A stretch of DNA of 64,000 bases from NCBI RefSeq assembly GCF_001427985.1, contig NZ_LMSA01000003.1, positions 139,153-203,152 on the forward strand. Direction: 5' to 3'. Source of the stretch: Knoellia sp. Soil729. Lineage in GTDB: Bacteria > Actinomycetota > Actinomycetes > Actinomycetales > Dermatophilaceae. Under the pieces are notes generated by a model, which was given only the letters and a program-made list of their open reading frames with translations, ran no database searches and was not told the origin of the DNA. Position 1 is the first letter of the stretch. Each line of letters opens with the position of its first letter. Positions 2-63,840 of this stretch are shown in pieces. The translations under genes and the position numbers were made by a program.

Positions 2-1426
2 GCACTCAAGGGTGCTGCTGCGGCTGCGCAGGCCCGGTTGACGGCGGCTGCGGTGGTGGACCGTAAGGCTTTGGGGGAGGACTCGCGCAGCGTGCGCGCG
101 GAAGTGGCTCTCGCGCGGCGGTGCTCCCCGACGGTGGCCGACCAGCACGTAGGGGTGGCGAAGGCGCTGGTGTCGGAGATGCCGGAGACGATGGGCGCGC
201 TCACGCGGGGGGAGATCAGTGAGCGTCGGGCGATGATCCTGGTGCGGGAGACCGCGTGCCTGAGCCGGGAGCACCGGGGTGAGGTGGACCGGCGCCTGGC
301 GTCGAAGCTGGCGATGATGGGCGACAAGGCGCTAGCCGGGGCGGCACGGCGAGCCGGTGCCGCACTGGACGCCGAAAGCCTTGCCGAGCGCAACCGACGA
401 GCAGTGGCAAGCCGGCGGATGAGTGTGCGTCCGGCGGCGGATGGGATGGCGTGGTTGTCGATCCTGGGCCCGGTCAAGAACATCATCGGAGCCCACGTCG
501 CCCTCACAGCGGAGGAGAAGCGCCGCCACGTCCTCGACCCCGACCTCCCCGCCAAGGAGTGGGAGGCGGCCGCCGCGGCGGCGCGGGCCGACACCCGGAG
601 CAAGGGTGCGTGGCTCGCGGACCGGGCCTTGGAGCTGCTCAGCGGCAGGGCGAAGGACCAACCGCAACCGGTGGAAGTGAACCTGGGGATGACCGACCGG
701 GTGCTCCTTCCGGCCGCGTTCGGTGGCAAGGCGCCGGCCGATGACGTCGCGGTCATCCCCGGCTGGGGTGTCATCCCCGGTGCCGAGGCCCGTGCCCACA
801 TCGCCGCGCTTTTGGATCGCGCCGGGGACCGCGCCAGTGATGCCGCCGCTGACAATGGCAGCGGCCGCGACGCTGACGGCGCCAGCGACGCAGCGGCGTT
901 CGTGTGGTTGCGGCGCCTGTTCACCGACCCGTCCGGGCGCAACCTCGTGGCCCTGGACTCGGTGCGTCGCCGGTTCGAGGGTGGGTTACGGCGCTTCCTC
1001 GAGCTGCGTGACCCGACCTGCCGCGTGCCGTGGTGTGACGCCCCCGCGACACAGTCCGACCACACCCGCTCCCACGCCGAGGGCGGCGCCACGGACGCCA
1101 GCAACGGGCAAGGGCTGTGCCAACGACACAACCTCATCAAGGAGCTCGACGGGTGGCACGTGCGGGTGCAGTCCACCGGCCTCGACGGCACCGGTGCACA
1201 CGGCATACGACTCCAGAGCCCGACCGGGCGCAGCCACGACTCGACCGCACCACCGATCCTGGGTGAGGGCTGGTCCGAGCCGGCTCGGTGCGACGAACCC
1301 GCGCCCGGAAGCGACGCCGACATCGGCTATGGCCTCGGGCTCACGCAGGAGCAGGAGCGGTTCGCCGAACAGTTCGGCGACTGGCTCGACCACGCCCACG
1401 AGGGCCACTACTGGGCCGCTGCGTGA
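2..1426 (+). CDS. DUF222 / HNH endonuclease domain protein (13E12-repeat family), 5' end outside window
   Basis: The reading frame is open to the left edge and the residues before the first possible start (TTG at 38) continue the Ala-rich helix expected here, so the gene begins upstream. The N-terminal two thirds is the helical DUF222 region. The C-terminus has an HNH-type nuclease core around CRVPWCDAP, the SDHTRSHAEGGATDASNG segment and LCQRHN, which supplies the Cys, His and Asn residues of a zinc-stabilised beta-beta-alpha-metal fold. Such proteins occur in many copies in actinomycete genomes and are often treated as selfish or recombination-linked; the cellular role is unknown. Base composition matches its neighbours, and no mobile-element ends are visible inside the window. 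Confidence 0.85.
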   Translation, partial: ALKGAAAAAQARLTAAAVVDRKALGEDSRSVRAEVALARRCSPTVADQHVGVAKALVSEMPETMGALTRGEISERRAMILVRETACLSREHRGEVDRRLASKLAMMGDKALAGAARRAGAALDAESLAERNRRAVASRRMSVRPAADGMAWLSILGPVKNIIGAHVALTAEEKRRHVLDPDLPAKEWEAAAAAARADTRSKGAWLADRALELLSGRAKDQPQPVEVNLGMTDRVLLPAAFGGKAPADDVAVIPGWGVIPGAEARAHIAALLDRAGDRASDAAADNGSGRDADGASDAAAFVWLRRLFTDPSGRNLVALDSVRRRFEGGLRRFLELRDPTCRVPWCDAPATQSDHTRSHAEGGATDASNGQGLCQRHNLIKELDGWHVRVQSTGLDGTGAHGIRLQSPTGRSHDSTAPPILGEGWSEPARCDEPAPGSDADIGYGLGLTQEQERFAEQFGDWLDHAHEGHYWAAA

Positions 1427-1448
1427 GGCTGGACGCCCGCCGAGAACG

Positions 1449-1485
1449 CTGATGGTCCGCTGCCCGAGGGGCAACGGACCATCAG
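1449..1485. terminator. Bidirectional terminator-like hairpin
   Basis: A perfect 11-bp inverted repeat CTGATGGTCCG / CGGACCATCAG encloses a second 4-bp stem (GCCC/GGGC). It lies between the convergent HNH gene and livF. There is no clear T-run, which is usual for high-GC actinomycete terminators. Confidence 0.75.
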
Positions 1486-1519
1486 CCAGGTCCCGCGGAC
1501 AGCGCGGGACGCGGGTGCC

Positions 1520-3129: not shown

Positions 3130-4877
3130 GCCTTGGCCTCCGCTTCCTCGAGGTGGACTTCTTCCAGTCGTTCTGCGAGACCCTCGTCTTCCTCGTGGAA
3201 CTCGAGCTTGCGACGCTGGCTCGCGATGATGCCCTCCGGGCGGTAGCGCATCATCAGGACGAGCACGAGCCCGAAGATCATGAGGCGGTAGTCCGCGATG
3301 AAGCGCAGCTTCTCCGGAAGCAGCTTGAGGATCGTCGCCCCGACGAGGACACCGGCAACGGTGCCCATGCCGCCGAGGACGATGGCTGCGAGGAGGAAGG
3401 CCGACTCGAGGAAGATGTACTGGTCGGGCGTGACCGAGACGTCGTGGTGAGCCTTGACCGTGCCCGCCATGCCGGCCAGGAAGGCACCACCGGCGAAGGC
3501 GAACAGCTTGAGGCCGAAGACGTTGACGCCCATGGCCTCCGCAGCCTTCTCGTCCTCACGGATGGCGACCCAACCACGGCCGATGCGGCTGTCGTTGAGG
3601 CGGCTGAACACGAGGATGATGAACGCCGCGAGGACCAGCAGGAGGAAGTAGTAGTTCGCGAACCTGCCGAGGGTGATTCCGAGGATGGTGTGCGGTTGAC
3701 CGAAGTCGAACGAGCCGATCGCGAGGTCGGGGATGGCCGGTATGCCGTTGGGGCCGTTGGTGAGGTCGGGCCCGTTGTTGCCGTCGAGGTTGCCCATGGT
3801 GAACCGGAAGATCTCACCGAAGGCCAACGTCACGATGGCGAGGTAGTCACCCGAGACCCGCAGCGTCGGCGAACCGATGATGAGACCGAGACAGGCCGAG
3901 AACAGGGCTCCGACGACGACGACGATGATGAACGGCGGCTTCCAGCCGATCGTGGCGAACGCCGACGTCGACAGCGTCGCGCCGACATAGGCGCCGGCGC
4001 CGAGGAAGGCGATGTAGCCCAGGTCGAGCAGGCCCGCCAGGCCGACGACGATGTTGAGGCCGAGGGCGGTCGCCGCGAAGATCAGCACCTGGGTCGCGAT
4101 CGACATGTTCTCGTCCGACCCGCCCTGGGTGAATGGGAAGAGGAACGCAACGGTGAAGGCGCCGAGCATGAGCACCGGCCGGTTCTTCTGGGCGATGAGC
4201 CCGACCCACGTGAACACTCCGGCCCTCGTCAGGCCCAGCGCCACCGTGGCCACGAAGATCAGGAACAGCGAGAAGCTGGGACCGTCTCCGATGCCGAGGG
4301 CGTAGGCCGCGCCGAAGAGGAGCAGGGCCATGAGCACGATGATCGTGAGGATCTCGAGCCACGACGAGGTCTTGGCGAAGAGCGGGTCGCGGTGCTGGCG
4401 GGAGACGAGCATGAGCCCCGACGCGGCCAGGACGAGCGCTCCGAGCAGCGAGATCCAGCCGCCGGGGTTGACGTTGATCAGCCCGCCGGACTGGACCGAG
4501 ATGACGGCGACGACGATCACCATGTAGATGACGGCGCCGAGCCCGAGAGCCCGCACGGCGCCCGCAGTGTCGAGCCACTCACCGAGGCGGTGCAGCGGGC
4601 CACGGTGGGCGAGCAGGAACAACAGCGCCACCAGGCCCAGGGCGATCATGCAGATCTGGACGCCGCCCGGGTAGAAGTTGATCGAGAGGTCGCCGAGGAC
4701 GTCGCCGGTGTAGCTCCACGAGAGGAACGTGCCGGCCACGAGGAGCGCGACGCCGGCGAGCCCGAGCGGCCAGGCCGCGGAGCTGCCGCGACCGGGCATG
4801 CGATCGAGCAGGGAGACCTTGACGAGCTCGTCGTCGTGGGAGTGGTCGTGCGCGAGGTCAGCAGTCGAGGTGCTCAT
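3126..4877 (-). CDS. livM: Branched-chain amino acid ABC transporter permease LivM (long form)
   Basis: Inner-membrane permease subunit of the Liv importer. The canonical LivM domain begins near residue 250 and includes the segment GLNIVVGLAGLLDLGYIAFL, the AIREDEKAAEAMGV loop that contacts the ATPases, and a closing MMRYRPEGII. About 250 residues precede it, with a His/Asp-rich cytoplasmic start (HDHSHDDE) and roughly seven predicted membrane segments, giving 583 aa against about 300-420 in classical LivM. I chose the ATG at 4877 because its ATGA overlaps the livH stop; a longer reading in this frame would cover livH and is rejected. Confidence 0.92.
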   Translation of the reverse strand: MSTSTADLAHDHSHDDELVKVSLLDRMPGRGSSAAWPLGLAGVALLVAGTFLSWSYTGDVLGDLSINFYPGGVQICMIALGLVALLFLLAHRGPLHRLGEWLDTAGAVRALGLGAVIYMVIVVAVISVQSGGLINVNPGGWISLLGALVLAASGLMLVSRQHRDPLFAKTSSWLEILTIIVLMALLLFGAAYALGIGDGPSFSLFLIFVATVALGLTRAGVFTWVGLIAQKNRPVLMLGAFTVAFLFPFTQGGSDENMSIATQVLIFAATALGLNIVVGLAGLLDLGYIAFLGAGAYVGATLSTSAFATIGWKPPFIIVVVVGALFSACLGLIIGSPTLRVSGDYLAIVTLAFGEIFRFTMGNLDGNNGPDLTNGPNGIPAIPDLAIGSFDFGQPHTILGITLGRFANYYFLLLVLAAFIILVFSRLNDSRIGRGWVAIREDEKAAEAMGVNVFGLKLFAFAGGAFLAGMAGTVKAHHDVSVTPDQYIFLESAFLLAAIVLGGMGTVAGVLVGATILKLLPEKLRFIADYRLMIFGLVLVLMMRYRPEGIIASQRRKLEFHEEDEGLAERLEEVHLEEAEAKA

Positions 4878-7816: not shown

Positions 7817-7838
7817 CGGCATACGCCCGTATGCCGTG
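7817..7838 (+). terminator. Hairpin formed by two opposed CGGCATAC octamers
   Basis: ACGGCATAC and GTATGCCGT form a perfect 9-bp stem with a GCCC loop, six bases after the stop codon of the Rieske gene. It is terminator-like but lacks a T-run. Confidence 0.6.
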
Positions 7839-7872: not shown

Positions 7873-9849
7873 GTGGCTCATCCGTCGACCTACCGTCCCC
7901 GGCCGGGAGAGATCCCGACCGACCCGGGTGTCTACCGGTTCCGCGACAAGGACGGCCGCGTCATCTATGTGGGCAAGGCGAAGTCGCTGCGTCCACGCCT
8001 GTCCTCCTACTTCCAGGACGTGGGGCTGCTCCACCCGCGCACGGCCTCGATGGTCATGTCCGGCGCGAGCGTCGAGTGGACCGTGGTCTCCACCGAGGTC
8101 GAGGCGCTCCAGCTCGAGTACTCGTGGATCAAGGAGTTCGACCCGCGCTTCAACGTCAAGTACCGCGACGACAAGTCCTATCCCTACCTCGCGGTGACGA
8201 TGGGGGAGGAGTTCCCCCGCGCGCAGGTGATGCGTGGTGCCAAGCGCAAGGGGACGCGCTACTTCGGGCCCTACGCCCACGCGTGGGCCATCCGCGAGAC
8301 GCTCGACCAGGCCCTGCGGGTCTTCCCCATGCGCACCTGCTCCGCAGGCGTGTTCAAGAGGGCGAGCCAGGTGGGGCGCCCGTGCCTGCTCGGCTACATC
8401 GACAAGTGCTCGGCCCCGTGCGTGGAGCGGGTCGACGCCGACGAGCACCGCCAGATCGCCGAGGACTTCTGCGACTTCATGGCGGGGGAGAGCTCGAAGT
8501 TCGTCAAGCGGCTCGAGCGACAGATGCGCGACGCCTCGGACGCGCTCGAGTTCGAGCAGGCGGCCCGGCTGCGCGACGACATCGGAGCGCTCCAGCGGGT
8601 CCTGGAGAAGTCGGCCGTCGTCTTCGGTGACGGGACCGACGCCGACGTCTTCGCCCTGTCCGACGACGAGCTCGAGGTGGCCGTGCAGGTCTTCCACGTC
8701 CGCGGCGGACGGATCCGGGGGCAACGGGGGTGGGTCGCCGAGAAGGAGTTCGAGACCGTTCCCGAGGTCGTGGGGCACCTCCTCCAGCAGCTCTACGGCG
8801 GGGAGGAGGGCGAGTCCGTCCCCCGCGAGGTGCTCGTCCCCGTGCTGCCCGAGGACGCCGGGACCCTGGGCGAGTGGCTGTCGGAGCGCCGGGGCAGCAG
8901 GGTGGATCTCCGGGTTCCGCAGCGCGGTGACAAGAGAACCCTCATGGAGACCGTCGAGCGCAACGCCACGCAGAGCCTGGCGCGCCACAAGGTGGCCCGC
9001 GCGGGCGACCTCACGGCCCGGTCGCAGGCGCTCCAGCAGCTCCAGGAGTTCCTCGAGCTCGACGAGTCGCCGCTGCGCATCGAGTGCTACGACATCAGCC
9101 ACGTCCAGGGCACGCAGGTCGTCGGCTCGATGGTCGTCTTCGAGGACGGGCTGGCGCGCAAGGGGGAGTACCGCCGGTTCATCGTGCGCGGACAGCAGGA
9201 CGAGGAAGAGGGAGGGACCGCGGCTCCCATCGACGACACGGCTGCGATGCACGAGGTGCTCACCCGCCGCTTCCGCCGCTACCTCAAGGACCGCGACGAG
9301 CCACAGGGGCTCGACCAGGAGACCGGCCGGCCGACGCGCTTCGCGTACCCGCCGCAGCTCGTCGTCGTCGACGGTGGGCTGCCCCAGGTCAACGCGGCGG
9401 CGCGCGCCATCGAGGACCTCGGCATCGTCGACGTGGCCATCGTGGGACTGGCCAAGCGCCTCGAGGAGGTGTGGGTTCCGGGGCAGGACTTCCCGGTCAT
9501 CCTTCCTCGCACCAGCGAGGGCCTCTACCTCCTGCAGCGACTGCGCGACGAGGCCCACCGCTTCGCCATCACCTTCCACCGGCAACGCCGGAGCAAGGCG
9601 ATGACGAACTCCGCACTGGACGGCATACCGGGTCTGGGGGACGTCAAGCGCAAGGCGCTGCTGCGGCACTTCGGGTCGGTCAAGCGCATCCGGGCCGCGA
9701 GCCTCGACGAACTGGGTGAGGTCAGCGGAATCGGCCCTAGGCTGGCAGGCACCATCCAGCGCGAGCTGACTGGCGCCGCCGAAGCAGCACCCACGGTCAA
9801 CCTGATGACCGGCGAGATCATCGACGACGAGAGGGGCAGCGATGCCTGA
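7873..9849 (+). CDS. uvrC: Excinuclease ABC subunit C
   Basis: Endonuclease that makes both incisions during nucleotide excision repair after UvrAB locates damage. The 658 aa contain the GIY-YIG nuclease domain near residues 15-95 ([20 protein letters not shown]), a UVR helical hairpin around 205-240, the RNase H-like C-terminal nuclease with [12 protein letters not shown] and [10 protein letters not shown], and tandem helix-hairpin-helix motifs at the end ([15 protein letters not shown] and [10 protein letters not shown]). Length and domain order are normal. It overlaps rapZ by eight bases and heads the uvrC-rapZ-yvcK-whiA cluster conserved across actinomycetes. The Ile of DGIPG uses ATA inside a CGGCATAC octamer. 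Confidence 0.97.
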
Positions 9850-14196: not shown

Positions 14197-15399
14197 ATGA
14201 AGTCGATCGCCGATCTCGGCGACCTGCAGGGCAAGCGCGTCCTCGTCCGGTCCGACCTCAACGTGCCGCTCGAGGGTTCGTCGATCACCGATGACGGACG
14301 CATCCGCGCGTCGGTGCCGACGATCCAGGCCCTGTCCGAGGCGGGCGCACGCGTCATCGTGTGCGCCCACCTCGGTCGGCCCAAGGGCACCCCGGAGGAC
14401 AAGTACTCGCTGGCACCGGTCGCGGCACGCCTCGGCGAGCTGCTCGGCAGGGACGTGACGTTCGCCACCGACACCGTCGGTGAGAGCGCACAGTCCGCAG
14501 TCGAGGCTGCACAGGACGGCGACGTCGTGCTGCTCGAGAACCTGCGCTTCAACGCGGGGGAGACCGCGAAGTCGGCGGATGCGCGGGCCGGGTTCGCAGG
14601 CCAGCTCGCCTCTCTCGCAGATGTTTTCGTCTCGGACGGCTTTGGTGTCGTGCACCGCGAGCAGGCGTCGGTCTTCGACGTCGCCCGCCTCCTCCCATCC
14701 GCCGTCGGTGGTCTCGTCGAGACCGAGGTCGGCGTGCTCCGTCGCCTGACGACCGACCCCGAACGCCCGTATGCCGTGGTGCTGGGCGGCGCGAAGGTGT
14801 CGGACAAGCTCGCGGTCATCGACAACCTCATCCAGACCGCCGACCGCCTCCTCGTCGGGGGCGGGATGGTCTTCACCTTCCTCAAGGCGCAGGGCCACGA
14901 GGTCGGCAAGAGCCTGCTCGAGGCCGACCAGGTCGACGTGGTCAAGGGGTACCTCGACCAGGCCAAGGAGCGTGGCGTCGAGATCGTCCTGCCCGTGGAC
15001 GTCGTCGCGGCGACCGAGTTCTCGGCCGAGGCCGACCACGAGGTGGTCGGGATCGACGCCATCCCCGCCGACCGCATGGGGCTCGACATCGGGCCGAAGT
15101 CGGCCGAGCTGTTCGCCGACAGGCTCGCCGACTGCCGCACGGTCTTCTGGAACGGACCCATGGGCGCGTTCGAGATGGCGCCCTACGCCGCGGGCACCAA
15201 GGTACTCGCCACGGCGCTGGCCGACATCACCACCGACGGTGCCCTCACCGTCGTCGGTGGTGGCGACTCAGCGGCCGCGGTGCGCCAGCTCGGGTTCTCC
15301 GACGACCAGTTCGGACACATCTCCACCGGCGGCGGTGCCAGCCTCGAGTACCTCGAGGGCAAGGACCTCCCCGGCCTCACCGTCCTCGAAGAAAGCTGA
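14197..15399 (+). CDS. pgk: Phosphoglycerate kinase
   Basis: Transfers phosphate from 1,3-bisphosphoglycerate to ADP. 400 aa, standard length. The substrate-binding Arg segment [20 protein letters not shown], the lid strand [17 protein letters not shown] and the nucleotide-binding [15 protein letters not shown] are present. The ATG at 14197 begins 11 bases after the gap stop. A longer open frame upstream lies inside gap and is rejected. The TAT Tyr codon in [10 protein letters not shown] comes from a GTATGCCG octamer. Confidence 0.97.
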
Positions 15400-16923: not shown

Positions 16924-17683
16924 AGCTGGACTCGAGGTGCTCCGCGGCCTCCGCGTCGACCAGCCAGAGCGTGCGCTCCTCGCCCTTGACCTGTGCCGCC
17001 GAGCTGACCTGCGGCCCCGCACCGGCGACGCCGTTGGCCACGGCCTTGGCCTTGTCGGAGCCGGCCACGATGAACCACACCTCGCGCGAACGGCGCAGCG
17101 CCTCGAAGGTCAGGCTGACCCGGTCCGGGGGCGGCTTGGGGGAGTCGTGCACGGCCACCGCGATGGCGCCAGTGCTCAGCTGGGCCGGGTGCCCGGGGAA
17201 CAGCGAGGCGATGTGCCCGTCCGGGCCCACACCGAGGATCATCACGTCGAAGGCACCCGCGTCCGCCGCGCGCACCGCTTCTCCGTATGCCGTTGCACTG
17301 GACTCCGCACTCTGCGACTCGTCCGGGCCGGGAACCCGGTGGACCCGCGTCTGGTCGAGGGGCAGCGAGGCGAGGCCGGCCCCATCGTTCTGGACGTCGT
17401 TGCGGTCCTGGTCCCCGGCGGGCAGGTAGCGCTCGTCACCCCACCACAGCTCCACCCGTGACCAGTCCACGGCCGACCTGGCCGGGAGCGCGGCCATGGA
17501 CGCCCACAGGTCCGAGCCCAGCGACCCACCGGTCAGCGAGATGTGGACGACGTCCTGCTGCGACTGGGCGTCGGCGATGGCCGTGAGGAGCCGGGCGGCG
17601 ATGGCGTCGCTCAGCTGCTGCTTCCCGGGGTGCACGATCACGTCGACATCGCGCACCTGGCTGAGGTCGTTGGCTCCGGTCAT
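16913..17683 (-). CDS. pgl: 6-phosphogluconolactonase
   Basis: Hydrolyses 6-phosphogluconolactone in the oxidative pentose phosphate pathway. 256 aa of the SugarP_isomerase/DevB type, with LTGGSLG, WWGDERYLP, GVGPDGHIASLFPG (catalytic His) and VSLTFEALRRSREVWF. It is the last gene of the tkt-tal-pgi-zwf-opcA-pgl operon, 13 bases after opcA. The stop lies inside the 3' end of rbpA on the other strand, so the two transcripts end overlapping and no terminator separates them. Confidence 0.95.
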   Translation of the reverse strand: MTGANDLSQVRDVDVIVHPGKQQLSDAIAARLLTAIADAQSQQDVVHISLTGGSLGSDLWASMAALPARSAVDWSRVELWWGDERYLPAGDQDRNDVQNDGAGLASLPLDQTRVHRVPGPDESQSAESSATAYGEAVRAADAGAFDVMILGVGPDGHIASLFPGHPAQLSTGAIAVAVHDSPKPPPDRVSLTFEALRRSREVWFIVAGSDKAKAVANGVAGAGPQVSSAAQVKGEERTLWLVDAEAAEHLESSFTG

Positions 17684-18842: not shown

Positions 18843-20383
18843 GGGAGCCTCCATTCACGGCCGTCACGGCGCATGAGCTCGTCGGCACTGTCGGGACCCC
18901 AGGTGCCGGAGGTGTACTGGTCGATTCCGTCGTTGGTCCTGGACCAGAACTCCTCGATGGGGTCGAGGATCTCCCAGGAGAGCTCGACCTCCTCGTGCCG
19001 CGGGAAGAGCGGCGGCTCACCGAGGAGCACGTCGAGGATGAGCCGTTCGTAGGCCTCCGGGGAGCTCTCGGTGAAGGCACGTCCGTAGCCGAAGTCCATC
19101 GTCACGTCGCGCACCTCCATCTGCGCACCGGGGACCTTGGCGCCGAAGCGCATCGTCACACCCTCGTCCGGCTGCACGCGGATCACCACGGCGTTCTGGC
19201 CCAGCTCCTCGGTCGCGGTGTCGTTGAAGGGCAGGTGCGGAGCCTTCTTGAACACGACGGCGATCTCGGTGACGCGCTTGCCGAGACGCTTGCCCGTCCG
19301 CAGGTAGAACGGGACACCCGCCCAGCGGCGGGTGTCGATCTCGAGCTTCACCGCGGCATACGTCTCGGTCGTGGAACCGTTGGCGACGCCGTCCTCCTCG
19401 AGGTAGCCGGCGACCTCCTCACCGCCCTGCCAGCCGCGGGCGTACTGGCCGCGCGCGGTGCCCTTGGCCAGGTCCTTGGGCAGGCGGACGGCGGAGAGGA
19501 CCTTCTCCTTCTCGCTGCGCAGGTAGTCCGCGGCGAAGGAGACCGGCTCCTCCATCGCGGTGAGCGCGAGCAGCTGCAGCAGGTGGTTCTGGATGACGTC
19601 GCGAGCGGCACCGATGCCGTCGTAGTAGCCGGCCCGCCCGCCGATCCCGATGTCCTCGGCCATGGTGATCTGGACGTGGTCGACGTAGTGGCTGTTCCAG
19701 ACCGGCTCGAACATCTGGTTGGCGAACCGCAGCGCCAGGAGGTTCTGGACGGTCTCCTTGCCCAGGTAGTGGTCGATGCGGAACACCGAGTCAGGGGGGA
19801 AGACCTCCTCGACGATCGCGTTGAGCTCACGCGCGCTCTGCAGGTCGTGCCCGAACGGCTTCTCGATGACGACCCGTCGCCAGGCGTCGCCCGGCGGCGT
19901 GGACAGGCCCGAGCGCTTCAGCTGCTCGCAGACGGTGGCGAAGAACGAGGGTGGGATGGACAGGTAGAACGCGTGGTTGCCACCCGTCCCGCGCTGCTCG
20001 TCGAGGTCTCGCACCGTCTCCGCGAGGAGGTCGAAGGCCTTGGGGTCGTCGAACGTGCCCGGGACGAACCGGAACCCCTCGCTCAGCGCGCGCCAGACGT
20101 CCTCGCGGAACGGCGTGCGCGAGCGCTGCTTGACCGACTCGTACACGATCTTGCCGAAGTCCTGGTCGGCCCAGTCGCGTCGCGCGAACCCGATGAGCGA
20201 GAAGCCCGGGGGGAGCAGGCCGCGGTTGGCGAGGTCGTAGATCGCCGGCATGAGCTTCTTGGTGGCCAGGTCACCCGTCACACCGAACAGCACGAGGCTG
20301 CACGGTCCGGCGATGCGGGGGAGCCTCTTGTCGCGTGGGTCCCGCAGGGGGTTGTGGGTGGCAGAGATGCGCGCCGGACTCAT
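18839..20383 (-). CDS. zwf: Glucose-6-phosphate 1-dehydrogenase
   Basis: First, NADPH-generating step of the oxidative pentose phosphate pathway. 514 aa with nucleotide-binding LVLFGVTGDLATKKLMPA, the active-site segment RIDHYLGKETVQNLL (catalytic His, substrate Lys), EKPFGHDLQSAREL and YLRTGKRLGKRVTEI. It overlaps pgi by one base and opcA by four, consistent with co-translation and assembly with OpcA. Confidence 0.97.
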   Translation of the reverse strand: MSPARISATHNPLRDPRDKRLPRIAGPCSLVLFGVTGDLATKKLMPAIYDLANRGLLPPGFSLIGFARRDWADQDFGKIVYESVKQRSRTPFREDVWRALSEGFRFVPGTFDDPKAFDLLAETVRDLDEQRGTGGNHAFYLSIPPSFFATVCEQLKRSGLSTPPGDAWRRVVIEKPFGHDLQSARELNAIVEEVFPPDSVFRIDHYLGKETVQNLLALRFANQMFEPVWNSHYVDHVQITMAEDIGIGGRAGYYDGIGAARDVIQNHLLQLLALTAMEEPVSFAADYLRSEKEKVLSAVRLPKDLAKGTARGQYARGWQGGEEVAGYLEEDGVANGSTTETYAAVKLEIDTRRWAGVPFYLRTGKRLGKRVTEIAVVFKKAPHLPFNDTATEELGQNAVVIRVQPDEGVTMRFGAKVPGAQMEVRDVTMDFGYGRAFTESSPEAYERLILDVLLGEPPLFPRHEEVELSWEILDPIEEFWSRTNDGIDQYTSGTWGPDSADELMRRDGREWRLP

Positions 20384-37077: not shown

Positions 37078-38384
<1,307 letters not shown>

Positions 38385-39190: not shown

Positions 39191-39720
39191 TGAGCCGACT
39201 CGTCGAGGTTGCGCCGGAGCGTTATCCCGCCTGGCGCGAGCGCTTCGACGCCGCCAATCCCGACGGACCCCAGCGGGTCGTCGGGATCTCGCGTTTCGAG
39301 CACCCGCACCTTGCCGTCGTGCTCGTCAGACGCGGCGGGTATGCCGTGGCGCACGTTGACGGGTCCACTCTCGTCGCGCACAAGGTGGGGACCCGTCACG
39401 TCCAGTCGCGCACCGCGGCGGGCGGGTGGTCGCAGCAGCGTTTTGCGCGGCGCCGGGGCAACCAGGCGGACGAGCTGGTGCGGGCTGTGACGGAACACTT
39501 CCTGCGGATCGTGCCGGCCGGCATACCCACGGGCCTTGTCGTCGGTGGGGACAGGACCTTGGTGCGCGACGTGCTCGACCCTGCCCGGATGGCCTGGCTG
39601 CGCGAGCTGCCCAGACGGGAGTTCCACGACATCGGCGACCCACGACGCGCAGTCCTCGACGAGGTCGTGCGCCGAGCGCGGGCCGTCGAGGTCCGCATCG
39701 ACGACGGCCCGGGGACATGA
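39190..39720 (+). CDS. acVLRF1-type peptidyl-tRNA hydrolase / release factor
   Basis: 176 aa. The segment TAAGGWSQQRFARRRGNQ matches the VLRF1 signature (Gly-rich loop, then Gln and Arg residues, ending in NQ) of eRF1-like proteins that free peptides from stalled ribosomes. The actinomycete form is a stand-alone domain, as here. The GTG shares a base with the sufT stop (TAGTG), so it is coupled to the suf operon. Two recurring octamers lie inside the gene, one giving a TAT Tyr and one an ATA Ile. Confidence 0.78.
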   Translation: MSRLVEVAPERYPAWRERFDAANPDGPQRVVGISRFEHPHLAVVLVRRGGYAVAHVDGSTLVAHKVGTRHVQSRTAAGGWSQQRFARRRGNQADELVRAVTEHFLRIVPAGIPTGLVVGGDRTLVRDVLDPARMAWLRELPRREFHDIGDPRRAVLDEVVRRARAVEVRIDDGPGT

Positions 39721-43337: not shown

Positions 43338-45217
43338 GCGTGGCCGGATGGCAGGCGATCCACAGCCTGAGCAAGGACTCCAGCGTGCGCTCCCGGGAGC
43401 TCGCCCCCGGCACGGCCCGACGGGTCCTGTCCTACGCCCGTCCGTACCGGTCGATCATCGTGTGGTTCCTCGTGCTCGTCGTCGTCGACGCGTTGCTCAT
43501 CGTGGCCACGCCGCTGCTCTTCAAGAGCCTCATCGATGACGGCATCTATCCCAAGGACTCCGGCGTGGTCGTGCGGCTGTCCTTGCTTGTTGCGGCGATC
43601 GCCATCCTCAGCGCGCTCGTCACCCTGGTCTCGCGCTGGCTCTCCTCGCGCATCGGCGAGGGCCTCATCGTCGACCTGCGCACGCAGGTGTTCGGGCACG
43701 TGATGCGCCAGCCCGTCGCCTTCTTCACCCGGGCCCAGACCGGTGCTCTCGTGTCACGCCTCAACAACGACGTCATCGGCGCCCAGCAGGCCTTCACGTC
43801 AGTGCTCTCGAGCGTCGTGAGCAACGCGGTCTCGCTCGCCCTCATCATCGGGGTCATGCTGCTGCTGTCGTGGCAGCTCACCCTGGCATCCCTCGTGCTC
43901 GTACCGTTGTTCCTCATCCCGGCCCGCGCCATGGGTGGTCGCCTGGCGGCACTGGCGCACGACCAGATGGGACTCAACGCCGAGCTGGGCACGCGCATGA
44001 CCGAGCGCTTCAACGTCGCAGGTGCCCTCCTCGTCAAGATCTACGGCAACCCCGAGGTGGAGGACCGGCAGTACGCACAGCGGGCAGAGAGCGTGCGTGA
44101 CATCGGCGTGCGGATCGCGGTCAACCGGTCGGTCTTCTTCGTCGGCCTCACCCTGGTGGCCTCGCTGGCCACGGCCCTGGTCTACGGCTTCGGTGGTGTC
44201 ATGGCCGTGGACGGCTCCCTGAGCGTCGGCACGTTGCTGGCCCTCACGGCGTTGCTGGCGAGGCTCTACGGGCCGCTGACGACCATGTCCAACGCCCGTG
44301 TGGACGTCATGACGGCTCTGGTCTCCTTCGAGCGGGTCTTCGAGATCCTCGATCTCAGGCCGCTCGTGGCGGAGGCCCCTGACGCCACACCGGTCCCGGC
44401 GGGGCCGGTCCGCCTCGACCTCGACCACGTCCGGTTCGCCTACCCGGCCGCCGGCGAGGTCTCCCTGCGCTCCCTCGAGTCGGAGGCCAGCGGTGACCGC
44501 GAGCCCGGCTCGGAGGTGCTCGACGACCTCGACGCCACCATCGAGCCGGGGCAGCTCGTGGCGCTCGTGGGCCCGAGCGGTGCCGGCAAGTCGACCCTCA
44601 GCGCTCTCGTCGCCCGGCTGTACGACCCGACGAGCGGCGCCGTCCGCATCAACGGTGCCGACCTGCGCAGCGTGACCCTGGAGTCGCTGCGCGACACCGT
44701 CAGCGTGGTCACCCAGGAGGCGCACCTCTTCCACGACACGATCCGGGCCAACCTCCTGTATGCCGCGCCGGCGGCCACCGAGGCGCAGATCGAGGCCGCT
44801 CTGCGAGCGGCCCGGGTGTGGGACCTCGTCACCCGCCTGCCCGCCGGCCTCGACACCGTGGTGGGGGACCGAGGGCACCGGCTCAGCGGTGGCGAGAAGC
44901 AGCGCCTGGCCATCGCGCGACTGCTGCTCAAGGGTCCGCGGCTCGTCGTGCTCGACGAGGCGACGGCGCACCTCGACAGCGAGAGCGAGGTCGCGGTTCA
45001 ACGCGCGCTCGACGCCGCGCTCGAGGGGCGCACGGCGCTCGTGATCGCGCACCGGCTGTCCACCGTCCGGCACGCCGACCTCATCCTCGTGCTCGAGGAC
45101 GGTCGGATCGTCGAGCGGGGCACCCACGTCGAGCTGCTCGCCCGCGGCGGCCTCTACGGCCAGCTCTACACAACCCAGTTCGCTGACGACACGACGGCCT
45201 CCACGCCCGGCGTGTAG
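43334..45217 (+). CDS. ABC exporter, fused membrane and ATPase domains (MsbA/MDR-like)
   Basis: 627 aa half-transporter. Six membrane helices (residues about 38-330) precede an ATPase domain with Walker A GPSGAGKSTLSALV, Q-loop TQEAHLFHDTI, signature RLSGGEKQRLAIA, Walker B LVVLDEATAHLD and switch HRLSTV. It would work as a homodimer exporting a lipid, peptide or drug. A 12-codon ORF precedes it and the BldD-like box of the first sortase module begins on the last base of its stop codon. An insertion (EVSLRSLESEASGDREPGS) sits just before the Walker A strand. Confidence 0.9.
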   Translation: MSVAGWQAIHSLSKDSSVRSRELAPGTARRVLSYARPYRSIIVWFLVLVVVDALLIVATPLLFKSLIDDGIYPKDSGVVVRLSLLVAAIAILSALVTLVSRWLSSRIGEGLIVDLRTQVFGHVMRQPVAFFTRAQTGALVSRLNNDVIGAQQAFTSVLSSVVSNAVSLALIIGVMLLLSWQLTLASLVLVPLFLIPARAMGGRLAALAHDQMGLNAELGTRMTERFNVAGALLVKIYGNPEVEDRQYAQRAESVRDIGVRIAVNRSVFFVGLTLVASLATALVYGFGGVMAVDGSLSVGTLLALTALLARLYGPLTTMSNARVDVMTALVSFERVFEILDLRPLVAEAPDATPVPAGPVRLDLDHVRFAYPAAGEVSLRSLESEASGDREPGSEVLDDLDATIEPGQLVALVGPSGAGKSTLSALVARLYDPTSGAVRINGADLRSVTLESLRDTVSVVTQEAHLFHDTIRANLLYAAPAATEAQIEAALRAARVWDLVTRLPAGLDTVVGDRGHRLSGGEKQRLAIARLLLKGPRLVVLDEATAHLDSESEVAVQRALDAALEGRTALVIAHRLSTVRHADLILVLEDGRIVERGTHVELLARGGLYGQLYTTQFADDTTASTPGV

Positions 45218-48463: not shown

Positions 48464-49270
48464 TCAGTAGTCCTCCTCGTCCCAGATCCGGACCTTCTTG
48501 GGCTTGACCACGCGATCGGGCTGCGCCTCTCGCTGCTCGCGGCGCAGCCCGAGCCAGATGAGCAGCAGTCCCACCGGCATCGAGAACCACCACTGGAAGG
48601 CGTACGCCTGGTGAGGTCCCAGGCTGCGGTCAGGGTCGGCGAGGGCAGCCGGGCGCGCAGGCTCCGTCCCGTCGGGCAGCTTCTCGGAGGCGAGGACGAC
48701 GTAGCCGTCGAGGACCTCCGTTCCCCAGGCGGCCTCGACGTCGGGCAGGCTGATGCTCGCGACCTGGCCATCCGGAAGCTTCTTGTGATCCGTGCTCTCG
48801 GCTGGGCGGACCCAACCCACCACGGTGACCTCTCCTGCGGGAGCGGGAGGGACCTCGGGCAGGACGTTGGCACCGCGGGCAGAGTTCTCGACCCACCCGC
48901 GGTCGATGATCGCCGTCGACCCGTCCTGCAGTCGCAGCGGCGCGAGGACCTCGTACCCATAGACGCTGTTGTTGGGGCGGTTGCGCACCAGGAGCTGCTG
49001 CCCGTCGTAGGAGCCGGTCGCCGAGACCTTGGTCCAGTCGTCCCGGGCACGGTCGACCGGCTGGTGGTCGAGGACACTCGCCAGTGGCACCGGCTCGGCA
49101 CGGTAATGGGCGTCCAGCAGGGCATTGCGCTCGGCCTTGAACTCGTAGCGTCCCCACTGCCACTGACCGAGGTGGTACCCCACGAAGGCATACACCACGG
49201 CAAGGGCGAGGGCACCCAGCCAGCGCGGGGTGAACAGACGCCGAAGCACGCGCTTCACGCTACCCGGCAT
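48464..49270 (-). CDS. SURF1-family cytochrome oxidase assembly protein
   Basis: 268 aa with membrane helices near both ends (residues about 17-33 and 228-245) and an extracytoplasmic domain between. SURF1 hallmarks are LGQWQWGRYEFKAERN, VRNRPNNSVYGYEVLAPL and IDRGWVEN. It helps insert heme A or otherwise assemble aa3 oxidase, which fits the ctaA and ctaB genes elsewhere in the window. It is divergent from moaA with only 11 bases between start codons, so promoter signals overlap; the start at 49270 is therefore less certain than the product. Confidence 0.88.
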   Translation of the reverse strand: MPGSVKRVLRRLFTPRWLGALALAVVYAFVGYHLGQWQWGRYEFKAERNALLDAHYRAEPVPLASVLDHQPVDRARDDWTKVSATGSYDGQQLLVRNRPNNSVYGYEVLAPLRLQDGSTAIIDRGWVENSARGANVLPEVPPAPAGEVTVVGWVRPAESTDHKKLPDGQVASISLPDVEAAWGTEVLDGYVVLASEKLPDGTEPARPAALADPDRSLGPHQAYAFQWWFSMPVGLLLIWLGLRREQREAQPDRVVKPKKVRIWDEEDY

Positions 49271-50908: not shown

Positions 50909-51622
50909 ATGAGCGCAGCACGCAACGTCCTTGTCACCGGGGGCAACCGGGGGATCGGCCTGGCCATCGCCCAGGCCTTCGTCGAGGGCGGCGACACGGT
51001 GGTCGTGACCAGCCGCAGCGGAGAGGCCCCGCAGGGCCTGACGGCCGTCACGTGCGACGTCACCGACACCGAGTCGGTCAACGCGGCCTTCGCCGCCGCC
51101 GAGGAGATCTTCGGTGGTCCGGTGCAGGTTCTCGTAGCGAACGCAGGCATCACCAAGGACGGGCTCCTCATGCGCATGAGCGACGAGGACTTCGACGCCG
51201 TCATCGACACCAACCTGGCTGGTGTCTTCCGCTGCGTCCGGCGTGCCAGCACCGGCATGATCAAGGCCCGCGGCGGACGGATCGTCCTCATCTCCAGCGT
51301 CGTCGGCCTCTACGGCGGACCGGGCCAGGCCAACTACGCGGCCAGCAAGGCCGGGCTCGTGGGCCTGGCCCGTTCGGTGACGCGAGAGCTCGGTGGGCGT
51401 GGCATCACCGCCAACGTCGTGGCACCGGGCTTCATCGAGACCGACATGACCGCAGCGCTCCCGGAGGACACCCAGAAGACCTACAAGGCCGGCATACCTG
51501 CTGGGCGGTTCGCTCAGCCCGGTGAGGTGGCCGCCGTCGTGCGCTTCCTCGCCTCCGAGGACGCCGGCTACGTCACGGGGGCCGTCATCCCCGTCGACGG
51601 TGGACTCGGCATGGGCCACTGA
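50909..51622 (+). CDS. fabG: 3-oxoacyl-ACP reductase FabG (MabA-like)
   Basis: NADPH-dependent reductase of fatty acid elongation. 237 aa short-chain dehydrogenase: TGGNRGIGLAIA at the cofactor site, NAG in VANAGITKDG, catalytic Ser in LISSVVGLYG, Tyr and Lys in NYAASKAGL, and the end PVDGGLGMGH. It is followed after 47 bases by the enoyl reductase, the mabA-inhA order of mycobacteria. An Ile in AGIPAGRF is ATA within an octamer. Confidence 0.95.
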   Translation: MSAARNVLVTGGNRGIGLAIAQAFVEGGDTVVVTSRSGEAPQGLTAVTCDVTDTESVNAAFAAAEEIFGGPVQVLVANAGITKDGLLMRMSDEDFDAVIDTNLAGVFRCVRRASTGMIKARGGRIVLISSVVGLYGGPGQANYAASKAGLVGLARSVTRELGGRGITANVVAPGFIETDMTAALPEDTQKTYKAGIPAGRFAQPGEVAAVVRFLASEDAGYVTGAVIPVDGGLGMGH

Positions 51623-57567: not shown

Positions 57568-57628
57568 CGGACTCCTCGGTGCTGGCAGTGGTGGTGCGGG
57601 GTGTGCCTCGGTGTCGAGCTCGAGCGGG

Positions 57629-59767: not shown

Positions 59768-60580
59768 GGAGTTCACCGCGTCGCGCCAGGCGAGGAGGTC
59801 ACGGACCGGACCGAGGTCGAAGTCCGGGCCGCTCAGTCCAGTGGTGAACAGACGGGTGCCCACGGCATACAGGGCATCGGCCGCAGCGGCGTGGTCCGGC
59901 ACGTCCTCGGGGAAGCGGCCCGGTTGGGGGCTCACCCCCGCCGAGCGTTCGATGGTCGCGGGGTCGCGGCCCAGGCGGGCACACCAGTCGTCCAGGACGG
60001 CGTGCTTGTGGGCGATCTTCTCGGCGTCACCGAAGCCGTGCCAGATGTCGGCCTGCTCCGCCACGATCCGCAAGGTCTTGCGCTCACCACCTCCACCCAC
60101 GAGCACGGGGATGGGGCGCGTCGGGGCGGGGTTGAGCCGGCTGCACCGCTCCTTGACCAGTGGGAGGTCACGGTCCAGGGCGTCGAGCCGTGCCCCGGGC
60201 GTGCCGAACTCGTAGCCGTACTCGTCGTAGTCGCGCTCGAACCATCCCGAGCCGATCCCGAGGATGAGCCGGCCCTCGCCGCCGCGCGCGGAGATGTGGT
60301 CGACGGTCCTCGCCATGTCGGCCAGCAGCTGCGGGTTGCGGTAGGAGTTGCAGGTCACGAGTGCGCCGATCTCGACCCGTTCGGTGGCCTCGGCCCACGC
60401 GGCGAGCATCGTCCAGCACTCGAAGTGGGCTCCGTCGGGGTCGCCGCTCAGGGGGAAGAAGTGGTCCCAGTTGAACAGGACGTCGACGCCCATCTCCTCG
60501 AGGGCTGCGCACGTGCGCCGAATGTCCGCGTATGCCGCGTGCTCCGGCTTGACCTGAACGCCGACACGCGCTCGGCTCAC
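59765..60580 (-). CDS. LLM-class F420-dependent oxidoreductase
   Basis: 271 aa luciferase-like TIM barrel. [55 protein letters not shown] and [16 protein letters not shown] identify a group of predicted F420-dependent enzymes common in actinomycetes (TIGR03560-like, from memory). The substrate is unknown. It is coupled to glgC by a GTGA overlap, though no functional link to glycogen is evident. Confidence 0.85.
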
Positions 60581-61830
60581 GGCTCGAGCACCGTGCCCTT
60601 GCCGACGATGGTGATGCCGGACTCGGTGACGGTGAAGCCGCGGGCGCGGTCGTGCTCGGCGTCGAAGCCGACGGAGGTGTTCTCGGGCAGATGGACGTTC
60701 TTGTCGATGATGGCGCGGCGCACGCGGCAGTTGCGGCCGATGTCGACGGCGTCGAGGATCACCGAGTCGTCGACCTCGGAGTAGCTGTGCACCCGCACGT
60801 CGGGGGAGATGATCGAGGAGTTCACGCGGGCGCCACTGACGATCACGCCGGGGGAGACCATCGAGTTCAGGGCCTCGCCGAAACGACCGGACGCGCCGTG
60901 GACGAACTTCGCCGGCGGGTAGGGGCCGTAGCTCGTGAACAGCGGCCAGTCGTAGTTGTAGAGGCTGAAGATCGGGTGGATCGAGATGAGGTCCATGTGG
61001 GCGTCGAAGTAGGAGTCCAGCGTCCCGACGTCACGCCAGTAGCCCTTGTCGCGCTCGGTGCCACCGGGGATGACGTTCTTCTTGAAGTCGTAGGTGTAGG
61101 CGGCACCCTGCTTGACCAACGCCGGGACGATGTCGCCGCCCATGTCGTGGGTGCTGTCCGGGTCCTCGGAGTCGCGGGTGACGGCCTCCTGGAGGACGTC
61201 GGCGTCGAAGACGTAGTTGCCCATGGAGGCGAGGATCTCGTCGGGGGAGTCGGGCAGCCCGTCGGGGTCGGAGGGCTTCTCGAGGAACGCCTTGATCTTG
61301 GTGTGGTCGTCGGCCTGAACCTCGATGACGCCGAACTGGTCGGCCATGCCGATCGGCTGGCGGATCGCCGCGACGGTGACGCCCGCGCCGGACTCGACGT
61401 GCTGGTCCACCATCTGCGAGAAGTCCATGCGGTAGACGTGGTCGGCCCCCACCACGACGACGATGTCCGGACGCTCGTCGGTGATCGTGTTGAGGCTCTG
61501 GAAGATGGCGTCCGCGCTGCCCTGGTACCAGGACTTGTCGACACGCTGCTGCGCGGGGATCGGTGCGACGTAGTTGCCGAGCATCGTCGACATGCGCCAC
61601 GTCTTCGTGACGTGCCGGTCGAGGCTGTGCGACTTGTACTGCGTCAGCACGACGATCTTGAGGTAGCCGGAGTTCACGACGTTGCTCAGGGCGAAGTCGA
61701 TGAGCCGGTAGATGCCTCCGAACGGCACGGCCGGCTTGGCCCGGTCGGCGGTGAGGGGCATGAGTCGCTTGCCCTCCCCACCTGCGAGAACAATGACGAG
61801 CACCTTGGGTCCACCGCTGCGGTATGCCAT
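60577..61830 (-). CDS. glgC: Glucose-1-phosphate adenylyltransferase
   Basis: Makes ADP-glucose, the donor for glycogen and maltose-1-phosphate synthesis. 417 aa. Nucleotide motif [20 protein letters not shown], catalytic [19 protein letters not shown] and a left-handed beta-helix C-terminus with hexapeptide-like repeats ([20 protein letters not shown]). The ATG at 61830 lies within a GTATGCC heptamer, and a TAGGTT -10 ends seven bases upstream. Divergent from glgA, its pathway partner. Confidence 0.96.
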
Positions 61831-61837: not shown

Positions 61838-61843
61838 AACCTA
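61838..61843 (-). promoter_or_regulatory. -10 element of glgC, leaderless
   Basis: TAGGTT on the minus strand, seven bases, then the ATG at 61830. Confidence 0.5.
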
Positions 61844-61894
61844 GTGGACGGCGCCCGCGGATGTGACTTGCGTCTCCGCCCGGCTCGACGGCGA

Positions 61895-61900
61895 TAGGGT
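61895..61900 (+). promoter_or_regulatory. -10 element of glgA, leaderless
   Basis: TAGGGT, six bases, then the GTG at 61907. Confidence 0.5.
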
Positions 61901-61906
61901 CGCCCT

Positions 61907-63097
61907 GTGCGAGTCGACATCCTCAGCAAGGAGTACCCACCCACGATCTACGGCGGGGCGGGGGTGCACGTCGCCGAGCTGACGCGGGCCCTGCGCGAGC
62001 GAGGCGACATCGACGTCCGGGTGCGGGCCTTCGGACCTCCCCGTGACGAGGAGGGGACGACCGGGTATGCCGACCTGCCGGCTCTCGAGGGCGCGAACCC
62101 TGCGCTCGTGACCATGGGAGTCGACCTGGCGATCGCGGCCGACTGCGGCGGCACGGACCTGGTGCACTCGCACACCTGGTACGCCAACTTCGCCGGCCAC
62201 ACGGCCTCGCTCCTCGAGGGCGTCCCGCACGTCGTCAGTGCCCACAGCCTCGAGCCGATGCGGCCGTGGAAGGCCGAGCAGCTCGGGGGCGGCTACCGAC
62301 TCTCGTCCTGGATCGAGCGGACGGCCTACGAGGGTGCAGCTGCCGTCATCGCGGTGAGCGACGGCATGCGCAAGGACGTCCTGCGCAGCTATCCGACCAT
62401 CGACCCGGACAAGGTCAAGGTGGTCCACAACGGCATCGACAGCGAGCTGTGGAAGCGGGTCGAGGACCCCGACACCGTGCGCCGTCACGGCGTGGACCCC
62501 GACCGGCCCGGCGTCATCTTCGTCGGCCGGATCACCCGCCAGAAGGGCCTGCCCTACCTGTTGCGGGCGGTGGCCGAGCTGCCGCCGGAGGTGCAGGTGG
62601 TCCTGCTCGCGGGCGCACCCGACACCCCCGAGATCAAGTCCGAGGTCGAGGAGCTCATCGCCGGTCTGCGCGAGACGCGGGACGGGGTGGTGTGGGTTCC
62701 CGAGATGCTGCCGCGCAACGAGGTCATCGCGCTGCTCTCGGCCGCGACGGTGTTCGTCTGTCCCTCGGTCTACGAGCCGTTGGGCATCGTCAACCTGGAG
62801 GCCATGGCGTGCGACCTGCCGGTCGTCGCGACGGCCACGGGTGGCATCCCCGAGGTCGTCGTGGACGGGGAGACCGGCTGGCTCGTGCCGATCGAGCAGG
62901 TGCAGGACGGGTCGGGCGTCCCGGTCGACCCCGACCGCTTCGTCGCCGACCTCGCGGGTGCGCTCAACGCGGCGGTGTCGGATCCCGAGCGGGCGGCGCG
63001 CTTCGGCAGGGCGGGCCGGGTTCGTGCCGTCGAGTCGTTCTCGTGGTCACGCATCGGTGACGAGACGCTGACCGTCTATCGCGAAGTCCTGCGCTGA
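61907..63097 (+). CDS. glgA: Actinomycete GlgA/GlgM-type glycosyltransferase (GT4)
   Basis: 396 aa. N-terminal [19 protein letters not shown], donor-site [12 protein letters not shown], and C-terminal [15 protein letters not shown] and [17 protein letters not shown] belong to family GT4. Annotated as glycogen synthase in many genomes; the mycobacterial homologue makes maltose 1-phosphate from ADP-glucose and glucose 1-phosphate, so the true product may be that. Its 3' end overlaps the convergent unknown gene by 22 bases. Confidence 0.92.
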
Positions 63098-63840
63098 GCC
63101 ACTGCTGAGACGCCGGCGTTCGTCGCGTCGGCCAGCGTGCGCTCAGCGGCCCGGTGCAGGCCGCGCAGCAGCTCGAGACGGCGTTGTTGCGTCCAGGCGT
63201 CCGGTCCGTCCTGCGGTCCGTCCAGGCCCGCCGCCGCGGCAGCACTGATGGCGGCCGCGAAGGTGATCGCGCGCAGCACCGGTCCGGGCAGCTCGTCGGG
63301 CAGGGCCCACGTCTCCGGGCGGGGAAGGGCCTCACGTGCGGCCGTGGCGTCGAATGGGCGTCCCCCGAGGGCGTCGAGCTGCTCGGTCGTCTCCAGCACC
63401 GTCGTGGTGAGCAGGCGGGTGGACTCCCGCGGGTCGAGCGCGGCCACCCGGTGCGTGGGCACGGCCTCGCAGTCGTGCGCCGTCCAGTCCAGCCGGCTGC
63501 CGGAGTCCGCGCCGCTGGCCCCCGGCGGTCCGAAGGTCGACCACGAGGGGATGAGAAGGGCGCCGAGTCCCGGTGCCACCAGGCACTCCTCGGCCTCGAC
63601 CGCTGACGCGCGGGTCTGCGGGTCGCAGGCCGGCAGGCTCGTGAGGTCGCCGCTCACCGGGAGCGCGACGAGGACGGTGCGCTCACCCAGGTCACGCCAC
63701 AGCTCGAGGCCTCGTATGCCGGGTCCGACCGCATCGACGTCGGGCAGGGCGGACTCGATGGCGCTCTCGAGGCTGGCGCCCCGAGCCCACGCGGACGTCG
63801 CCCACAGGGCGATCCGAACAGAAGCGGGAAGCTCGGGCAT
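63076..63840 (-). CDS. Conserved protein of unknown function
   Basis: 254 aa, Ala/Leu/Asp-rich, with no signal peptide, membrane helix or motif I recognise. Distinct segments are GLELWRDLGERTVLVALPVSGDL near residue 42 (a strand-rich part), ALLIPSWSTFGPPG, and a helical C-terminal third (VLRAITFAAAISAAAAAGLD). The start at 63840 is supported by TACGAT six bases upstream. Ile in GPGIRGLE is ATA inside an octamer. It overlaps glgA tail to tail. Confidence 0.65.
   Translation of the reverse strand: MPELPASVRIALWATSAWARGASLESAIESALPDVDAVGPGIRGLELWRDLGERTVLVALPVSGDLTSLPACDPQTRASAVEAEECLVAPGLGALLIPSWSTFGPPGASGADSGSRLDWTAHDCEAVPTHRVAALDPRESTRLLTTTVLETTEQLDALGGRPFDATAAREALPRPETWALPDELPGPVLRAITFAAAISAAAAAGLDGPQDGPDAWTQQRRLELLRGLHRAAERTLADATNAGVSAVAQRRTSR

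Follow-up and report, generated by a model that had tools for sequence, protein, structure and literature searches.

An asymmetric octamer of Knoellia and related actinobacterial genera as a candidate DNA uptake sequence

RESULTS

Occurrence and abundance of the octamer

The stretch of DNA analysed here, referred to as the window, comprises 64,000 nucleotides of the Knoellia sp. Soil729 genome (contig NZ_LMSA01000003.1, positions 139,153 to 203,152; GC content 69.7%) and carries 29 copies of the octamer CGGCATAC (reverse complement GTATGCCG), which we interpret below as a probable DNA uptake sequence (Table 1). An earlier note on the same DNA had reported 31 copies of GGCATAC/GTATGCC, 29 of them preceded by C. 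Recounting gave the same 31 (14 on the plus and 17 on the minus strand) and the same 29 (13 and 16), and the positions given were right except for two that were off by one, the sites placed at 7819 and 7830 starting at 7818 and 7829. Open reading frames (ORFs) were predicted by a simple custom caller, not a standard one.

Table 1. Copies of the octamer, and of GGCATAC without the leading C, in the window
Feature	Position	Strand	Context
CGGCATAC site	1201..1208	+	coding
CGGCATAC site	3740..3747	-	coding
Inverted pair CGGCATAC GCCC GTATGCCG	7817..7836	7817-7824 +, 7829-7836 -	hairpin
CGGCATAC site	9621..9628	+	coding
CGGCATAC site	14769..14776	-	coding
CGGCATAC site	17285..17292	-	coding
CGGCATAC site	19354..19361	+	coding, identical in 6/6 relatives
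CGGCATAC site	22383..22390	-	coding
CGGCATAC site	26115..26122	-	outside ORFs accepted by the custom gene caller
CGGCATAC site	27359..27366	+	coding
CGGCATAC site	27501..27508	-	coding, identical in 6/6 relatives
CGGCATAC site	28159..28166	+	coding
CGGCATAC site	31202..31209	-	coding
CGGCATAC site	31351..31358	+	coding
CGGCATAC site	32994..33001	-	coding
CGGCATAC site	33144..33151	+	coding
CGGCATAC site	34862..34869	-	coding, SufBD-core gene, identical in 6/6 relatives
CGGCATAC site	35438..35445	-	coding, SufBD-core gene
CGGCATAC site	37319..37326	+	coding
CGGCATAC site	38303..38310	+	coding, identical in 6/6 relatives
CGGCATAC site	39339..39346	-	coding, identical in 6/6 relatives
CGGCATAC site	39519..39526	+	coding
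CGGCATAC site	44758..44765	-	coding, identical in 6/6 relatives
One-off word AGGCATAC	49186..49193	+	GGCATAC without leading C
CGGCATAC site	51490..51497	+	coding, identical in 6/6 relatives
CGGCATAC site	59863..59870	+	coding, identical in 6/6 relatives
CGGCATAC site	60530..60537	-	coding
One-off word TGGCATAC	61822..61829	-	second GGCATAC without leading C
CGGCATAC site	62065..62072	-	coding
CGGCATAC site	63714..63721	-	coding

Markov models of order 1 to 3 predicted only 0.7–1.05 copies in the window, and CGGCATAC was its top-ranking octamer at each of these orders, while unremarkable GC-rich words, for example CGACGACG, led the order-0 ranking. In a 464-kb sample made of the window and positions 1–400000 of C1 of the same genome, 255 copies were seen (5.8–10.6 expected at orders 1–3), and the word again ranked first among octamers at orders 2 and 3; the order-0 model gave 16.5 copies for this sample and about 2.3 per 64 kb, in agreement with the roughly two anticipated in the earlier note. 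The whole 3.6-Mb genome contains 2,138 copies (1083 and 1055 by strand), compared to 89 (51 and 38) for the reversed word, taken as control. The earlier note had named two outcomes that would speak against over-representation, a count close to the Markov expectation and an equal enrichment of unrelated octamers, and neither was observed. An asymmetric word in hundreds to thousands of copies per genome, present in both orientations, is what is expected of an uptake sequence.

High copy number would also suit a signal with strand polarity, for instance Chi or KOPS (FtsK orienting polar sequences). However, strand counts in four adjacent 100-kb bins were balanced (27/27, 30/30, 28/26 and 28/30 for plus/minus), bearing out locally the lack of polarity remarked on before, and the largest skew among the 110 enriched genomes described below was 0.06, whole-genome skew by itself being blind to replichore polarity. 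A Chi- or KOPS-like role was rejected on the local balance; of all the explanations considered it retains the least probability, close to none.

Distribution in the family and dialects of sister genera

The word was counted in 186 genomes of the family (Dermatophilaceae), and a genome was called enriched when it had at least 300 copies and at least twice the reversed control. By this definition 110 of the 186 genomes and 31 of 53 genera were enriched, including all nine genomes of the genus of the window (our own and eight others; 1,971–3,277 copies). Below, G-numbers denote genomes and g-numbers genera. Among 16 named genomes, enrichment was found in three Knoellia (including K. koreensis), Phycicoccus elongatus, two Terrabacter, Pedococcus, Flexivirga, Ornithinimicrobium cavernae and a Tetrasphaera metagenome-assembled genome, and to a lesser degree in O. 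laminariae (404 versus 69 controls); Janibacter limosus, two Mobilicoccus, Luteipulveratus and Austwickia were not enriched. In a class-wide sample of 394 genomes, eight belong to the family, five of them enriched, and only four of the 386 others exceeded 300 copies (G086, 386; G429, 342; G156, 316; G407, 313). These four are genomes of 6.5–8.5 Mb with counts of only 1.9–2.2 times the control; G086 and G156, which just pass the cut-off, have about 50 copies per Mb compared to 593 in the genome of the window. Separately, the count table, as read by eye, lists 170 copies versus 27 reversed controls for G351, from another family of the class.

Stretches from genera poor in CGGCATAC were then searched by k-mer counts, and three variants were counted in the 186 genomes. 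All three were confirmed genome-wide as dialects, as expected of an uptake sequence: CGGCATCC (3,816 and 3,838 copies in g17, 3,949 in g26, and 4,480, 3,619, 2,195 and 2,099 in g180; 241–1,336 outside these genera), CG[C/T]CATAC (2,770–4,266 in 5/5 genomes of g27, 2,815 in G011, 1,675 in G012, 857–1,254 in 4/5 genomes of g51 and 830–1,058 in 3/4 of g12, whose fourth genome, G525, has 753 versus 674 controls; lower in other genera) and GCGCATAC (427–685 versus 52–81 controls in 4/4 genomes of g20). Genomes rich in CG[C/T]CATAC carry CGGCATAC too. Judging from equal word counts, g27 would be Flexivirga and g189 Janibacter. Further dialects may be represented by GGACGTCC and CGGCGTCC, over-represented in samples of G018 (L124-L125), and by CGCCGTAC in samples of G514 (L136-L138; 38 copies, 7.4–7.9 expected). 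The top word of G030, CAGTTCGA, was rejected as a dialect since it comes mostly from a 24-bp tandem array; this array (L130, about 5007-5660) has about 27 copies containing CAGTTCGA, some dispersed copies of which also occur within 40 kb. Single species without CGGCATAC abundance were found inside enriched genera (G514, 19 copies; G536, 50; G461, 37), and no CGGCATAC-like word was prominent in 40–60 kb samples of G461, G536, G456 and G493.

Codon context and flanking preferences

In the 464-kb sample, 190 of the 255 sites lie inside predicted genes, where the word is read mostly as Tyr-Ala (xxG TAT GCC G, 98 sites) or Ala-Tyr (xCG GCA TAC, 60 sites), together 158 of the 190, and as Gly-Ile with ATA in 20 cases. 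It thus contains 20 of the 27 ATA and 98 of the 361 TAT codons of the sample. Site density was lowest in the most codon-typical fifth of the genes (0.166/kb, compared to 0.56–0.62/kb in the three lowest fifths); this fifth was likewise poor in sites in G002 and in G033, a genome of the CGGCATCC dialect, and slightly so in G478. The other 65 sites fall in the 10.6% of bases that are intergenic, an excess that, together with the one in G002 (78/196 sites in 11.3%), speaks for an uptake sequence; other stretches gave 45/204 sites in 10.3% (G033), 26/132 in 11.1% (G015) and 46/269 in 12.8% (G478).

Flanks were evaluated at 591 coding sites from nine sets, in which the sites of six relatives are partly orthologous to those of the window, against coding positions of matching frame and strand. 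A was preferred at position −11 (156 seen, 42 expected) and T at +15 (186, 116 expected), whereas T was nearly absent at −1 (15, 111 expected; A 235, 134 expected) and at +8 (9, 110 expected). At 191 intergenic sites, A−11 occurred in 69 and T+15 in 74, and at the 29 sites of the window in 15 and 13, respectively. The preference for A−11 was seen separately in our own 400 kb (45 seen, 12 expected) and in G002 (28, 8 expected), recurred in G033 (coding, 28 with 13 expected; intergenic, 18/45) and is suggested in G478 only by the intergenic sites (15/46). Positions −11 and +15 would each be separated from the core by about one turn of the helix, which would suit a protein-binding site.

These data bear on two other explanations. 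A mobile interspersed repeat, like repetitive extragenic palindromic sequences or bacterial interspersed mosaic elements, would account for intergenic copies that sit within longer hairpins, and a by-product of codon usage for the predominance of Ala-Tyr and Tyr-Ala. A repeat is difficult to reconcile with sites that are mainly genic and surrounded in the 464 kb by nothing but spaced single-base preferences, and codon usage with a word that uses the rare codons TAT, GCA and ATA and is rarest in the most codon-typical genes. Chance and codon usage were rejected as causes by the Markov counts, the rare-codon content and the frame-matched flanks, and we regard this pair of explanations as extremely improbable. 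The other explanation is that the word is the target of a DNA methyltransferase, orphan or restriction-linked, as in BREX (bacteriophage exclusion)-like systems, enriched since methylation matters. It draws support by analogy from HIP1, the highly iterated palindrome of cyanobacteria, which published excerpts tie to two orphan methyltransferases. Being asymmetric and containing A on each strand, the word could serve as such a target. Restriction, on the other hand, normally depletes its own targets, and the usual methyltransferase site is shorter than the reach of the −11 and +15 preferences, which makes a methylation target improbable.

Conservation among relatives

Sites were compared with orthologous 60-kb regions of six relatives, counting gapped sites as not identical and dropping 24 of 174 comparisons that were unaligned. 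The sites were identical in 118 of 150 aligned comparisons (17/25 to 21/24 in individual relatives), compared to 8,233 of 23,217 for composition-matched octamers, and are thus about twice as conserved. Codons were also better retained inside the word than outside, scored where the amino acid was unchanged: TAT in 59/67 versus 37/97 cases (Fisher p 5e-11) and GCA in 35/40 versus 151/637 (p 3e-16), both p values ignoring kinship among related genomes, which are not independent. The word overrides codon choice, forcing rare codons.

Inverted pairs, hairpins and spacing

All 15 pairs at most 60 bp apart in the 464 kb were inverted, and inverted pairs outnumbered direct ones in G002 (13 versus 4), G033 (10 versus 3) and G015 (5 versus 3). 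Of the 32 intergenic inverted pairs in our own genome, G002, G033 and G478, 24 occupy tandem gaps, eight convergent gaps and none divergent gaps, the last type accounting for 22, 17, 31 and 24% of the intergenic sequence, respectively; the midpoint of 27 of the 32 is within 60 bp of a gene 3' end. One pair forms a predicted hairpin of −45 kcal/mol (z −6.7). That of the pair in the window is weaker (−19.3 kcal/mol, z −1.3); the pair follows directly 3' of a predicted ORF (7338-7811, plus strand), and both its sites are identical in three of six relatives (G003, G008 and G007), gapped in G001 and unaligned in two. By position, such pairs after gene ends, with their hairpins, would match the terminator-associated pairs of uptake sequences, less clearly so in G478.

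This arrangement also helps to judge a mutation or repair bias, similar to very-short-patch repair, that converts near-matches to CGGCATAC. Conversion would yield many copies on both strands, and a few near-matches are indeed low in the 464 kb (CGGCAGAC, 17 versus 33.4 expected; CGCCATAC, 0 versus 2.7). As a class, however, the 24 single-mismatch words are not depleted (291 versus about 212 expected), and neither the frame-independent A−11 and T+15 preferences nor the inverted pairs at gene ends are predicted by conversion, so that we consider such a bias very improbable.

Spacing was compared with random placement after merging close sites, and three of five stretches were more even than random: our own C1 (coefficient of variation 0.755 versus 0.94 for random, 0/5,000 placements as low), G002 (15/2,000 as low) and G033 (0/2,000 as low). 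G478 has three long motif-free gaps, of which the largest, the only one scanned with Pfam, contained no clear mobile element (HAAS, PadR, sulfatase-modifying-factor-like, ion channel, FtsX, ABC transporter, histidine kinase and radical SAM proteins), which gives a mobile-element reading of this gap no clear support.

Conservation, even spacing and frequency would be predicted equally well by the main rival to an uptake sequence, namely a HIP1-like or chromosome-organising motif to which an intracellular nucleoid, repair or recombination protein binds, with selection keeping its frequency and spread; Karlin and colleagues interpreted the even spacing of uptake sequences themselves as pointing to a function in replication, repair or compaction (PMC1939737, in part). 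Dialects in sister genera and loss from G514, G536 and G461 would be odd for an essential chromosome-wide role, and inverted pairs at gene ends are a described habit of uptake sequences. We consider this alternative unlikely, although deserving more weight than any other rival.

Competence genes and neighbouring genes

Our own genome carries comEC and comEA, genes on which transformation of Micrococcus luteus reportedly also depends. Its Tad/Flp pilus locus encodes two Flp pilins, TadE, a TadG-like protein, RcpC, a ParA-like ATPase, a T2SSE ATPase and two T2SSF proteins, one of them with a VWA domain; we named the two ATPases TadZ-like and TadA-like, respectively. An integrase-core (transposase-like) gene lies near this locus (L197:8508-9194, minus strand).

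Within the window itself, the SufBD-core protein is closest to those of Knoellia locipacati and K. aerolata among named genomes (best 80 of 570 loci). A gene at 52456-54675 (plus strand) encodes a protein whose Mur-ligase middle and C-terminal domains precede TPR repeats, and adjoins a cyanophycin-synthase-like gene at 54679-57801 (minus strand); the two are possibly a cyanophycin-type peptide cluster.

DISCUSSION

Taken together, the abundance and asymmetry of the word, its dialects, its extended motif and conservation, and the inverted pairs that follow gene ends correspond to the published profile of the DNA uptake sequence (DUS) of Neisseriaceae and the uptake signal sequence (USS) of Pasteurellaceae. 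By this analogy, CGGCATAC is probably an uptake sequence in Knoellia and across many genera of the same family. The wider site would consist of the octamer with A upstream at −11, about one helical turn away, and T downstream at +15. A DNA receptor on the cell surface, probably tied to the Flp (Tad) pilus, ComEA and ComEC machinery, would favour fragments carrying the word during natural transformation, and recombination of the fragments taken up would copy sites back into the chromosome, so that they accumulate and persist by molecular drive. A change of receptor specificity in particular genera could then have led to CGGCATCC, CG[C/T]CATAC or GCGCATAC, or to loss of the word, and some sites may have been recruited as inverted pairs forming terminator-like hairpins that presumably act in termination. 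Regarding the broader proposal, namely that such a sequence evolved independently in actinobacteria with an Flp/Tad-pilus rather than a type IVa receptor, that dialect switches act as transformation barriers and that this is the first case outside two Gram-negative families, we find ourselves evenly balanced between belief and doubt.

Several observations weigh against an uptake sequence. Both comEC (180/186) and T2SSF (183/186) are present in motif-rich and motif-poor genomes of the family alike; being near-universal, they were rejected as genes tracking the motif, so that none of the tested genes tracks it, which would fit an intracellular protein as well. The type IVa pilus marker PilM_2 was found in only 7/186 family genomes, six of them over the cut-off; the type IVa pilus was therefore rejected as the uptake machine, and a ComP-like type IVa pilin is excluded as receptor for the majority of the genomes. 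Genes of atypical codon use, examined as possible foreign DNA, were not depleted of sites in our own genome, G002, G033 or G478, and the one phage counted, TJE1 of Tetrasphaera jenkinsii (GC content 57.7%), had two sites and two reversed controls, which is uninformative. Little or no intergenic excess was seen in the window and in five of the six 60-kb relatives (in G007, 6/26 sites lie in the 9.6% of bases that are intergenic). Spacing was not even in G015 (1,351/2,000 as low) nor in the window alone. G478 deviates repeatedly: its close pairs comprise 16 inverted and 12 direct ones, A−11 falls outside the seven strongest flank positions of its coding sites, and its sites are clumped with large gaps (2,000/2,000 as low). 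Finally, among the matches listed, the open-licence literature gave no report of competence for these genera.

Sequence-specific uptake is placed in two families, Pasteurellaceae and Neisseriaceae, in the available part of a 2016 review (PMC5031613), and the same two are named in the abstract of a 2020 paper (PMC7811141). Among the matches listed from the open-licence literature, none concerned an uptake sequence of actinobacteria, judging from titles and the beginnings of abstracts, and none concerned CGGCATAC as a bacterial motif, judging from titles. If CGGCATAC is an uptake sequence, it would represent a third independent origin, in Gram-positive cells and with another pilus, making self-marking of DNA a repeated outcome of competence. 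It would also provide a natural experiment in dialect change within one family, point to transformable strains and a DNA tag for the genetics of Knoellia, Phycicoccus/Tetrasphaera, Terrabacter and Ornithinimicrobium, and make the search for the receptor concrete.

Among known systems, the DUS of Neisseriaceae is likewise a short asymmetric word with many copies, species dialects, inverted pairs at terminators and permissive locations (PMC3630211, in part). It differs in belonging to another phylum and in its unrelated core; most genomes here are without the type IVa marker, and our word is a candidate uptake sequence. The DUS core GCCGTCTGAA does not occur in our own 464 kb, in which ATGCCGTC, described as the opening eight nucleotides of the 12-mer DUS (PMC5031613, in part), is present 98 times owing to its overlap with the word; we take this match to be a coincidence because the required CTG core (PMC3630211, in part) is missing.

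The USS of Pasteurellaceae resembles our word in its core with preferred flanking bases, in the inverted pairs found at gene ends, which in the USS act as terminators, and in a spacing of about 1 kb; its sites are fairly evenly distributed (PMC7811141 and PMC1939737, both in part), those of our word more evenly than random in three of five stretches. Its flanks are AT-rich (PMC7811141, in part), whereas those of our candidate consist of single-base preferences rather than AT tracts around a GC-rich core, and the USS AAGTGCGGT is absent from our own 464 kb.

Transformation of Micrococcus luteus by an Flp pilus is the closest case in terms of organism and machinery. M. luteus is an actinobacterium with comEA/comEC and Tad/Flp loci; according to the available part of the study, both tad clusters are required for transformation, and comEA/comEC mutants were assayed for it. 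The same text, unlike our proposal, mentions no uptake sequence or sequence-specific uptake.

HIP1 (GCGATCGC), of which the word had reminded the earlier note, is also a very frequent octamer and, like CGGCATAC, is not highly frequent in every genome of its group. The likeness holds for frequency but not for symmetry or constancy, since HIP1 is a palindrome of constant sequence in the cases described in the excerpts, whereas CGGCATAC is no palindrome, has asymmetric flanks and varies between genera as dialects. Thus, of the roles listed in that note (methylation target, uptake sequence and nucleoid-protein site), the uptake sequence fits better, given the asymmetry of word and flanks and the dialects of the genera.

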